Part shown: positions 11,572-13,932 of the stretch, in pieces | How the letters are laid out: each line of letters begins with the position of its first letter | How positions within the stretch are numbered: the first letter of the stretch is position 1 | Origin: Enterobacter hormaechei subsp. xiangfangensis | GTDB taxonomy: Bacteria > Pseudomonadota > Gammaproteobacteria > Enterobacterales > Enterobacteriaceae | NCBI RefSeq assembly: GCF_001729785.1 | Contig: NZ_CP017183.1 | Coordinates: forward strand, 2,542,001-2,606,000 | Length of the DNA stretch: 64,000 bases | Direction: 5' to 3' | Program-made: the position numbers and the translations under genes | The notes under the pieces: generated by a model | The model's database searches: none | What the model saw: only the letters and a program-made list of their open reading frames with translations | What the model was told of the DNA's origin: nothing

Positions 11572-12783
11572 ATGTCATGGTATTCCTTCAAACAGACTTA
11601 CCTGGTTAAGTTCTGGTCACCTGTTCCGGCCGTTATCGCGGCAGGCATTCTCTCTACCTATTATTTCGGTATTACCGGCACCTTCTGGGCTGTTACGGGC
11701 GAGTTTACCCGCTGGGGTGGGCAGCTATTACAGCTGGCAGGCGTCCATGCCGAAGAGTGGGGCTACTTCAAACTGATCCATCTTGAGGGCACACCGCTGA
11801 CCCGCATCGACGGAATGATGATCATTGGCATGTTCGGCGGCTGTTTTGCGGCCGCGCTGTGGGCCAACAACGTTAAGTTGCGCATGCCGAAAAGCCGCAT
11901 CCGCATTATGCAGGCCGTGGTCGGCGGCATCATTGCCGGGTTTGGCGCTCGTCTGGCGATGGGCTGTAATCTGGCCGCGTTCTTTACCGGCATTCCGCAG
12001 TTCTCGCTGCATGCCTGGTTCTTTGCCGTCGCCACCGCCATCGGCTCCTACTTCGGTGCTAAATTCACCCTGCTGCCGCTGTTCCGCATTCCGGTGAAAA
12101 TGACGAAAGTTAGCGCTGCCTCTCCGTTAACGCAAAAACCCGATCAGGCGCGTCGTCGTTTCCGCCTCGGTATGCTGGTCTTTTTTGCTATGGTTGCCTG
12201 GGCGATTTGCACGGCAATGAATCAGCCCAAACTCGGTCTGGCCATGCTGTTCGGCGTCGGCTTTGGTCTGCTGATTGAACGCGCGCAGATCTGCTTTACC
12301 TCCGCGTTTCGCGATATGTGGATCACCGGACGCACCATGATGGCGAAGGCGATCATTGCCGGCATGGCCGTGAGCGCAATTGGCATCTTCAGCTATGTTC
12401 AGCTCGGCGTGGAGCCAAAAATTATGTGGGCGGGCCCAAATGCCGTGATTGGCGGGCTGCTGTTTGGCTTTGGCATCGTGCTGGCGGGCGGGTGTGAAAC
12501 CGGCTGGATGTATCGCGCTGTGGAAGGCCAGGTGCATTACTGGTGGGTGGGTCTGGGTAACGTGATTGGCTCTACCCTTCTGGCCTGCTACTGGGATGAC
12601 GTCTCTCCGGTGCTGGTAACAAACTGGGACAAGGTCAACCTGCTGAAAACCTTTGGTCCACTCGGGGGGCTCCTGGTGACCTATGCCCTGCTGCTCATCG
12701 CCTTCTTACTGGTTGTTGCACAAGAGAAGCGCTTCTTCCGACGCGCCACCGCCAAAACTGAAACTCAGGAGAATGCCGCATGA
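11572..12783 (+). CDS. yedE: YedE, YeeE/YedE-family membrane transporter (selenium/sulfur-metabolism type)
   Basis: A 403-residue polytopic inner-membrane protein, strongly similar along its whole length to E. coli YedE. Conserved cysteine-containing segments are GARLAMGCNLAAFF, ERAQICFTSAFRD and LAGGCETGWMYRA; in the related thiosulfate transporter TsuA such cysteines line the substrate path. It is translationally coupled by a four-base overlap to yedF. Families of this pair are associated with selenium or sulfur transport, but the substrate of YedE is not firmly established. In E. coli the pair lies near fliT/amyA, not next to trp. Confidence 0.92.
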   Translation: MSWYSFKQTYLVKFWSPVPAVIAAGILSTYYFGITGTFWAVTGEFTRWGGQLLQLAGVHAEEWGYFKLIHLEGTPLTRIDGMMIIGMFGGCFAAALWANNVKLRMPKSRIRIMQAVVGGIIAGFGARLAMGCNLAAFFTGIPQFSLHAWFFAVATAIGSYFGAKFTLLPLFRIPVKMTKVSAASPLTQKPDQARRRFRLGMLVFFAMVAWAICTAMNQPKLGLAMLFGVGFGLLIERAQICFTSAFRDMWITGRTMMAKAIIAGMAVSAIGIFSYVQLGVEPKIMWAGPNAVIGGLLFGFGIVLAGGCETGWMYRAVEGQVHYWWVGLGNVIGSTLLACYWDDVSPVLVTNWDKVNLLKTFGPLGGLLVTYALLLIAFLLVVAQEKRFFRRATAKTETQENAA

Positions 12784-13013
12784 AAGAGATCGTGCCTGAT
12801 TATCGTCTCGATATGGTGGGTGAACCTTGCCCTTACCCGGCCGTCGCCACGCTTGAAGCGCTACCGCAGCTAAAGAAAGGTGAAATTCTGGAAGTGGTGA
12901 GCGATTGCCCCCAGTCGATCAATAACATTCCGCTTGATGCCAAAAATCACGGCTATACCGTGCTGGATATCCAGCAGGACGGACCAACCATTCGTTATTT
13001 AATTCAGAAGTGA
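12780..13013 (+). CDS. yedF: YedF, TusA-family sulfurtransferase-like protein
   Basis: A 77-residue TusA/SirA-fold protein with the family CPxP motif as EPCPYPAVATLEAL near residues 13-26; the cysteine is the predicted persulfide (or selenide) carrier. It begins inside the yedE stop (ATGA). The gene neighbourhood suggests it receives sulfur or selenium from the YedE transporter; this is inferred from context. A terminator follows at 13025-13048. Confidence 0.92.
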   Translation: MKEIVPDYRLDMVGEPCPYPAVATLEALPQLKKGEILEVVSDCPQSINNIPLDAKNHGYTVLDIQQDGPTIRYLIQK

Positions 13014-13024
13014 TTTCACGATCG

Positions 13025-13048
13025 AAAAAGGCCTCTCAGAGGCCTTTT
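13025..13048. terminator. Bidirectional terminator after yedF
   Basis: The inverted repeat GGCCTC (13030-13035) with GAGGCC (13039-13044) has A residues on the left and T residues on the right. It sits directly after yedF on the plus strand and directly after the YmcF-like gene (stop at 13049-13051) on the minus strand. Confidence 0.9.
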
Positions 13049-13228
13049 CTAGTTTACTGGCTTTGGCCACCGTCGTCGTCTGAGCTTCGGCAGGCATGAA
13101 TGAATGGTGAGACGTGTTCCGCAAACGGAACAGATAGCACCGTGAGGTAGGCTATGTGCTGGGCTGAACGTCGTGAACTGAAACTGTTTACCTGCACAAA
13201 CCGGACACTCAAATTTGATGTTGGGGAT
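13049..13228 (-). CDS. Small two-CxxC microprotein resembling the YmcF/YnfQ cold-shock family, probable non-AUG start
   Basis: The C-terminal reading frame encodes CPVCAGKQF and PHGAICSVC, two CxxC pairs (residues 8, 11, 33, 36 of a 59-residue product). The pattern CPxCxG, then TxF, six residues, PxGAxCxxC matches what I recall of the E. coli cold-shock microproteins YmcF and YnfQ, which were reported to start at ATT codons. No ATG lies in frame before the first cysteine. The best Shine-Dalgarno, GGAGG (13237-13233), sits just upstream of an ATC codon at 13228-13226, taken here as start. A TTG at 13270 would give 73 residues but has no good ribosome site. A zinc-binding role is inferred. Confidence 0.6.
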   Translation of the reverse strand: MPNIKFECPVCAGKQFQFTTFSPAHSLPHGAICSVCGTRLTIHSCLPKLRRRRWPKPVN

Positions 13229-13299
13229 ATCCCCTCCAGACAGGTGTGTGGAACAACCACCATACAGCAATCACCGGCTGACAGGGGATATATCTTCTG

Positions 13300-13932
13300 T
13301 CAGAAACGATAGCCTGCTGAGAACATAAATACCCACGGATCCAGACGGGTATTGATACTTTGCTGCTGCCCGCCAGCTTTAAAGCGCACGTCCGTATCAA
13401 TGTCCATATACCAGACAGAGGCGTTGATCAGCCAGTCACGATTAATCAGATAATCCAGACCAACCTGTCCCGCCATGCCCCACGAGTCTTTCAGGCTGAG
13501 ATCGGAGAGCCCGGCCTCTTTACCGGTATCGTTAAATTTCTCATCAAAGAAGGTGGTGTAGTTAACGCCTGCACCAATATAAGGGCGCACCTTGCTGCTG
13601 GAATCTCCGAAGTACCACTGCGCCATCAGCGTTGGTGGCAAATGGTGCACCGTGGCAATGTCCCCGGTCGGTCCTAAACCGACGCGGTGACGGAATGGCG
13701 TGGCGGCTAAAAGCTCGACGCCAATGTTATCCGTTGCCATATACGTAAACGTCAGGCCTAACTGGGTGTTATTGCTGACGTTAAACCCGCCCATACCCAG
13801 CACATTGTCGGACCCTTCCGTTGGACGTACCGTTGCCGAACCGGCACGAATAAAGAATTCACCTGCTTCATGCGCGTAAGCGCCGCCAGAGAGACTGCTT
13901 AAGATAAGGGCTGCCACCGCTAATTTTTTCAT
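13300..13932 (-). CDS. ompW: Outer membrane protein OmpW
   Basis: A 210-residue outer-membrane eight-stranded beta barrel with a cleavable signal peptide (about residues 1-20, ending GGAYA before HEAGEF). The protein ends in an aromatic residue (AGYRF), the usual outer-membrane assembly signal. OmpW forms a narrow hydrophobic channel for small hydrophobic molecules and is the colicin S4 receptor in E. coli. The segment YFGDSSSKVRPYIGAGVNY is typical of the family. Upstream sequence holds CRP-like and FNR-like boxes. Confidence 0.96.
   Translation of the reverse strand: MKKLAVAALILSSLSGGAYAHEAGEFFIRAGSATVRPTEGSDNVLGMGGFNVSNNTQLGLTFTYMATDNIGVELLAATPFRHRVGLGPTGDIATVHHLPPTLMAQWYFGDSSSKVRPYIGAGVNYTTFFDEKFNDTGKEAGLSDLSLKDSWGMAGQVGLDYLINRDWLINASVWYMDIDTDVRFKAGGQQQSINTRLDPWVFMFSAGYRF

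Follow-up and report, generated by a model that had tools for sequence, protein, structure and literature searches.

A short open frame lies between yedF and ompW in Enterobacter hormaechei subsp. xiangfangensis and raises the question of whether it is a gene and, if so, at which codon its translation begins. The window analyzed here is a 64,000-nucleotide stretch of contig NZ_CP017183.1 (positions 2,542,001 to 2,606,000). Its first-pass annotation proposed a two-CxxC microprotein related to YmcF and YnfQ of E. coli, starting at ATC 13228 behind a strong Shine-Dalgarno (SD) sequence. We consider it very probable that the locus holds an autonomous, selected zinc-ribbon gene homologous to YmcF/YnfQ, with an AUC start, a promoter of its own, and an output limited by IF3. 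The comparisons described below lift the observation above chance and indicate a real, conserved, and almost unannotated gene. Few bacterial genes are known with an AUU or AUC start, and here comparative genomics by itself fixes such a start across several genera.

The window ATC 13228, seven codons before the first Cys, is called codon #1 throughout, and the remaining features are collected in Table 1. The interval originally assigned, 13049..13270, does contain the frame and the sequence as described, but the supported gene spans only 13049–13228, and the coordinate 13270 belongs to a TTG-to-stop ORF. As had been noticed at the outset, no ATG precedes the first Cys in frame; the stretch from TTG 13270 to that Cys is equally devoid of in-frame GTG and further TTG codons.

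Table 1. Features of the microprotein locus and its flanks (window coordinates)
Feature	Position	Strand	Remark
Microprotein CDS, 59 residues, four-cysteine zinc-ribbon type	13049..13228	-	ATC start, TAG stop
Stop codon TAG of the microprotein gene	13051-13049	-	
Start codon ATC (codon #1)	13226..13228	-	ATC/ATT in 50 of 51 best matches
Shine-Dalgarno GGAGGGG	13231..13237	-	GGAGG at 13237-13233, 4 nt gap to ATC
Possible hairpin GGGG-AUAU-CCCC	13223..13234	-	covers the start codon and part of the SD
-10-like TATGGT	13259..13264	-	belongs to the conserved TAnnnT found at -36 relative to the start codon
TTG opening the mechanical ORF	13268..13270	-	rejected as start codon
Palindromic GATATATC	13287..13294	-	22 nt farther upstream than the -10-like element; probably a site for a regulator or of the -35 region
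Palindrome AAAAGGCCTCTGAGAGGCCTTTTT	13025..13048	none	follows the microprotein stop; may serve this gene and yedF as a bidirectional terminator
yedF	12780-13013		convergent to the microprotein gene
ompW	13300-13932		other flank of the microprotein gene

Read from the frame, the protein displays its Cys pairs as CPVC-x21-CSVC and ends in LRRRRWPKPVN. AlphaFold yields a model of only fair quality (pLDDT 78.9, pTM 0.54), and no significant fold match to this model was found in the PDB. The window protein is 98% identical to the one encoded at L043 of E. hormaechei subsp. hoffmannii DSM 14563. A single search of ~5.8 billion predicted proteins, which sees only proteins of similar length sharing exact 5-residue words, retrieved three relatives. 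Two of these (P0002 and P0003) are extended to upstream ATGs, and the third, from an 807-base contig, has a different N-terminus. The expectation that gene finders would miss the gene is borne out. A profile search gathered 12 proteins, mostly with Met at or near codon #1 as judged from the protein records; P0005 from Siccibacter turicensis, known as protein only, begins MPNLKF exactly at codon #1. Near-absence from protein databases fits a non-AUG start codon, and start-codon rules can thereby hide a conserved gene almost completely. The PIRT-Seq paper mentions an AUC candidate that an earlier screen had discarded on the same grounds (PMC12350097).

Relatives occur at E 0.01 in 37 of 60 neighbouring genomes, with distant csp-type paralogues counted in. 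A family-wide draw gave matches at E 1e-8 in at least 30 of 392 genomes, from at least 14 of 154 genera, and an order-wide draw gave matches at E 1e-6 in at least 12 of 394; in both draws no more than 16 candidates per genome were scored. The gene is present in Enterobacter, Leclercia, Kosakonia, Silvania, Trabulsiella, Pseudocitrobacter, Pseudenterobacter, and further genera. All 15 genomes of the Kosakonia-like genus group carry it, as do 3/3, 4/4, and 2/2 genomes of three further groups, and presence can thus be universal within genera that carry the gene. The window's own genus group has a strong match (rows below E 1e-20) in 27 of 61 genomes, leaving 34 without one; in G787 the sole strong match (L139) appears frameshifted. 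The mean pN/pS for 11 Enterobacter sequences is 0.18, at a pS of 0.49, and the corresponding values are 0.24 for 13 Kosakonia-type, 0.19 for nine Leclercia-type, and 0.31 for three sequences of a fourth group. Differences among the Enterobacter sequences fall on codon positions 1, 2, and 3 in the numbers 280, 303, and 1210, a third-position excess. These patterns indicate purifying selection on the amino-acid sequence of the microprotein. Disruption in close relatives, named beforehand as counting against a gene, was found in a few copies. The affected copies (L062/L146, L139, L150, and L151) are extra or sole ones that seem frameshifted, interrupted, or devoid of motif residues.

Evidence on the start codon that is independent of the codon itself comes from the best match per genome (n = 51, five genus groups), picked regardless of what stands at codon #1. 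This position reads ATC in 31 and ATT in 19, the remaining copy is broken, and ATG, GTG, and TTG do not occur, in line with the start originally proposed. In a broader collection, from which 30 csp-type and eight other motif matches were set aside and L062/L146, L139, L150, and L151 excluded for a broken frame or motif, 139 loci with family rows gave 84 distinct sequences once near-identical loci were merged. Codon #1 is ATC in 40, ATT in 23, and ATG in nine of the 84, and the other 12 have ATG at codon #4. As the 63 AUH-type sequences were chosen by codon #1, the statement that all 63 have ATC or ATT is no result; aligned gap-free on this codon (effective number 25.9), they served for inspection of the surrounding DNA. 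From the preceding stop to the first Cys, 44 of the 63 contain no in-frame ATG, GTG, or TTG, and 57 contain none within twelve codons of that Cys. GGAGG precedes codon #1 by 4 nt in 55 sequences and by 5 nt in two, with a weaker SD in the other six. The assignment of codon #1 is least sure in L090, which has ATC at #1 and a GTG two codons upstream, and in L155. Conservation and the frame are shown by these comparisons, and that translation starts at codon #1, with AUC here and AUC or AUU in orthologues, appears about as certain as comparison allows.

The upstream DNA of the homologues, whose alignment the first-pass annotation had called for, holds more than the conserved ATC/ATT. TAnnnT occurs at -36 in 57 of the 63 sequences, often with TG in front, and is followed by TTCCA and then the SD. 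Further up, GATATATC is found as an exact copy at -66 in 47 sequences and no more than 2 nt away from that position in 50; 13 have no exact copy. In the window, GATATATC begins 5 nt past the ompW stop, which is itself separated from ATC 13228 by 71 nt. The conserved block resembles a promoter of the extended -10 kind, accompanied by an element whose centre would be near -38 of the RNA, and the predicted promoter position implies a leader of ~25 nt. A consensus scan, which demands a -35 hexamer, called no promoter here, and it called no terminator at 13025..13048. The distance from ompW to the start codon is ~580 nt in six other Enterobacter loci, and flanks in other genera resemble frmR/frmA, ftrA, dcp, porin, or cspA/lpxP genes, with names read from the flanking proteins. 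Across such differing locations the microprotein gene evidently keeps its own control region.

This arrangement bears on the proposal that translation begins at an upstream canonical codon, TTG 13270 in the window, yielding a product of ~73 residues or longer. The window frame is indeed open up to this TTG, 19 of the 63 sequences contain some in-frame TTG, GTG, or ATG before the first Cys, and the public records of P0002 and P0003 reach upstream ATGs. The TTG, however, is not present in most orthologues, the 44 sequences noted above have no canonical codon at all, and stop codons interrupt the frame upstream. Furthermore, TTG 13270 has no SD-like sequence before it and lies just 3 nt upstream of the -10-like element, which probably places it outside the transcript. 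We regard such an upstream start as extremely improbable.

A second ATC (13219–13217, codon #4) offers another conceivable start, since a hairpin between the SD and this codon could reduce their spacing, and the 12 sequences with ATG at #4 are paralogues or distant relatives of the window gene. The putative hairpin, GGGG-NUAU-CCCC in the alignment, forms 4/4 pairs in 45 of the 63 sequences and is fully paired in a slid register in 53. In L079, L081, and L082 it retains only three pairs, which are not contiguous, and in L083 a single one, yet all four sequences keep ATT or ATC at codon #1. Three of these (L079, L081, and L082) read stop-GGG-ATT-ATT-TAC, the second ATT being codon #1. Codon #4, moreover, varies freely in the 63, with ATC in 22, CTC in 16, ATT in seven, CTA in seven, ATA in four, TTA in three, and TTG, CTG, CTT, and TCA once each. 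The TCA (L084) speaks against a start at #4, as does an SD spacing of 13 nt, and we judge this start very unlikely.

The same hairpin could suggest that RNA structure, or a need for Ile in the protein, and not start function maintains ATC/ATT at codon #1. The third base of codon #1 does pair in the putative hairpin, and the following Pro codon is CCC in 47 of 57 cases at codon 2 versus 46 of the 299 prolines at other positions of these genes, an excess implying that something acts on the nucleotides there. Persistence of ATT in L079, L081, and L082 despite the weakened hairpin argues against this explanation, and so does an ATG exactly at #1 in relatives (L086–L089, L091, L093, L096, L156, which begins MPNIKF, and L157). 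In-frame upstream stops also mean that the frame must begin close to codon #1. The structural or Ile-based explanation consequently finds almost no credence with us, and we retain codon #1 as the start, with the SD/start hairpin as a candidate element.

As to its affiliation, the first-pass annotation took the protein for YmcF-like, and homology is well founded: an hhalign comparison of alignment A3 with the csp-type alignment gave a probability of 97.7% (E 1.9e-12, 44 columns). Plain YmcF identity is a different matter. Against PF23641 the window protein scores 20.4–21 bits (E 4e-4 to 6e-4; gathering score 27), compared with 109.8 for YnfQ and 99.9 for the csp type of its own genome. Its best NCBIfam match, NF047912, reaches 26.9 bits (E 3.4e-06) and not the curated cut-off of 37. 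The precomputed assignment of P0002 and P0003, both close relatives, is PF23641.2, and homologues P0005 and P0012 pass the NF047912 cut-off with 38.8 and 39.8 bits. Falling below both cut-offs, the window protein appears to represent a sister subfamily rather than YmcF itself, and we place it in a new subfamily beside YmcF/YnfQ and ECs_2282.

With YmcF/YnfQ (RefSeq "cold shock small protein YmcF") the window protein shares a length of ~60 residues, two CxxC pairs, and G-A before the second CxxC. Their E. coli genes likewise have non-AUG starts; the ATT reported for ymcF and ynfQ agrees with the RefSeq records. The window gene differs in lacking an adjoining csp, in using ATC besides ATT, and in its own short-leader, promoter-like block, and the protein differs in its RRRRW-type basic tail and in starting seven, not eight, codons before the first Cys. 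The flanks are ompW and yedF, with no csp gene adjoining in the window, as had been pointed out. Among the 23 loci whose flanks were read, the Enterobacter ones have ompW and yedF, and L076 has a cspA-like gene ~590 nt upstream. ECs_2282, from the NF047912 family of putative zinc-binding proteins, has its ATG precisely at codon #1, seven codons ahead of the first Cys, but is a prophage gene (E. coli O157 Sakai prophage Sp12).

Whether a non-AUG start is a trait of the family, as the first-pass annotation suggested, receives a divided answer. The trait extends through the orthologues, but csp-type YmcF paralogues from the Enterobacter group have ATG 7–8 codons before the first Cys, after AGGAG/GGAG, in 26 of 27 cases; in the 27th (L026) the nearest ATG is further up. 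An extension to the whole family fails on the nine relatives with ATG at codon #1 and on ECs_2282. The non-AUG start thus appears conserved in this branch and recurrent elsewhere, and it is not universal in the family.

A tree of 90 proteins (55 columns), built without codons #1–#4 and with 32 of 87 inner branches open, requires at least 15 label changes for ATC, 10 for ATT, and four for ATG. These minima point to frequent interchange between ATC and ATT, and the four changes for ATG mean that switches between AUH and ATG have occurred. The ATG-at-#4 paralogues constitute a separate clade (100/99) beside the Leclercia type, and six csp types form a clade of their own (100/100). Most ATG-at-#1 rows fall in one long-branched clade (99/96), together with L090 and three ATG-at-#4 rows. 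Three rows with ATG sit between ATC/ATT rows, for the most part on long branches: the plasmid-borne L093 (ATG at #1) and L094 (ATG at #4), and L156 (ATG at #1), which is the second copy in G216. The AUC and AUU starts and their ATG relatives form a natural set in which to test why a poor start codon is retained.

IF3 discriminates against AUU and AUC as start codons. The window start lies outside AUG/GUG/UUG and has a strong SD, as in the IF3 class, and translation of the microprotein is probably limited by this factor, which would be the likeliest consequence of an AUC/AUU start. Such a codon points to weak, possibly regulated initiation. In the mechanism that we favor, transcription would proceed from the extended -10-type promoter below GATATATC, suggested by the conserved upstream DNA, and produce the short 5′ leader. 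The strong SD, at optimal spacing, would then hold the 30S subunit, the initiator tRNA would be placed on AUC/AUU, and discrimination by IF3 would keep output low. Output would depend on the IF3 level, on 30S availability, and perhaps on opening of the GGGG-AUAU-CCCC hairpin. The product, with its Cys pairs and arginine-rich tail, is predicted to be a zinc binder that probably also contacts nucleic acid or the ribosome.

Precedents for such starts exist in unrelated proteins. The infC and pcnB genes of E. coli are reported to have AUU starts (PMC9410913). They share the near-cognate AUH start with the microprotein gene, and in the window's own genus group infC keeps both ATT and an upstream GGAGG. 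A control reading of infC at 29 loci gave ATT in 18 (17/17 in the own genus group), with two lacking a reliable start and nine not read by the motif; the 18 readable loci show ATT only, whereas the microprotein gene alternates between ATC and ATT. Streptomyces sigR is described as having a GTC start that is IF3-repressed and conserved across Streptomyces, preceded by a very extensive SD, and misannotated to a canonical codon (PMC5472188). The likeness lies in the lineage-wide non-canonical start, the extensive SD, and the misannotation. The difference is that sigR encodes a sigma factor with an experimentally tested GTC, and the microprotein start is known from sequence comparison.

The weak start may alternatively be passive, a degraded codon in a little-used gene, tolerated and not selected for regulation. 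We consider this possible, though unlikely: disrupted copies exist and the own genus group includes the 34 genomes without a strong match, but the 50 intact best matches never have ATG, GTG, or TTG while purifying selection and the SD persist, and the recurrent ATC and ATT label changes imply that codon #1 has mutated often. At the other extreme, AUG could be actively barred, and the AUC/AUU codon, strong SD, and hairpin could together sense how stringent initiation is (IF3 per ribosome), with the zinc-ribbon product closing a feedback loop by acting on 30S subunits or on initiation regions of mRNAs, as IF3 does via its own AUU. This elaboration of IF3-limited initiation we hold to be improbable.

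Several other members of the family were encountered along the way. Two csp-type sequences from other genera, L107 and L108, contain an ATC in a frame devoid of canonical start codons; L109 and L113 likewise have no in-frame ATG, GTG, or TTG and contain CTG/ATT, which suggests further non-AUG starts. The csp-type YmcF paralogue of the window genome (L034, G000:C1:2439776-2439889) has an ATG start, and no csp gene was noticed within ~400 nt upstream; the TGACGTAG upstream of it we take to be cold-box-like. A csp-type YmcF relative that lacks annotation (L095, 1483-1620) directly follows cspA in Morganella phage IME1369_01, with a lauroyl acyltransferase gene downstream, and the chromosomal locus L076 has the similar order cspA-like / microprotein / acyltransferase-like. 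Genome G035 holds two near-identical paralogues with ATG at codon #4 (L031 and L032), ~360 kb apart and with nearly identical upstream flanks, in addition to an ATT-type copy, and several other genomes of its group also have extra copies. Positions 479-681 of L031 match the sRNA family STnc100 (RF02076) at 47.6 bits, versus a gathering score of 47.
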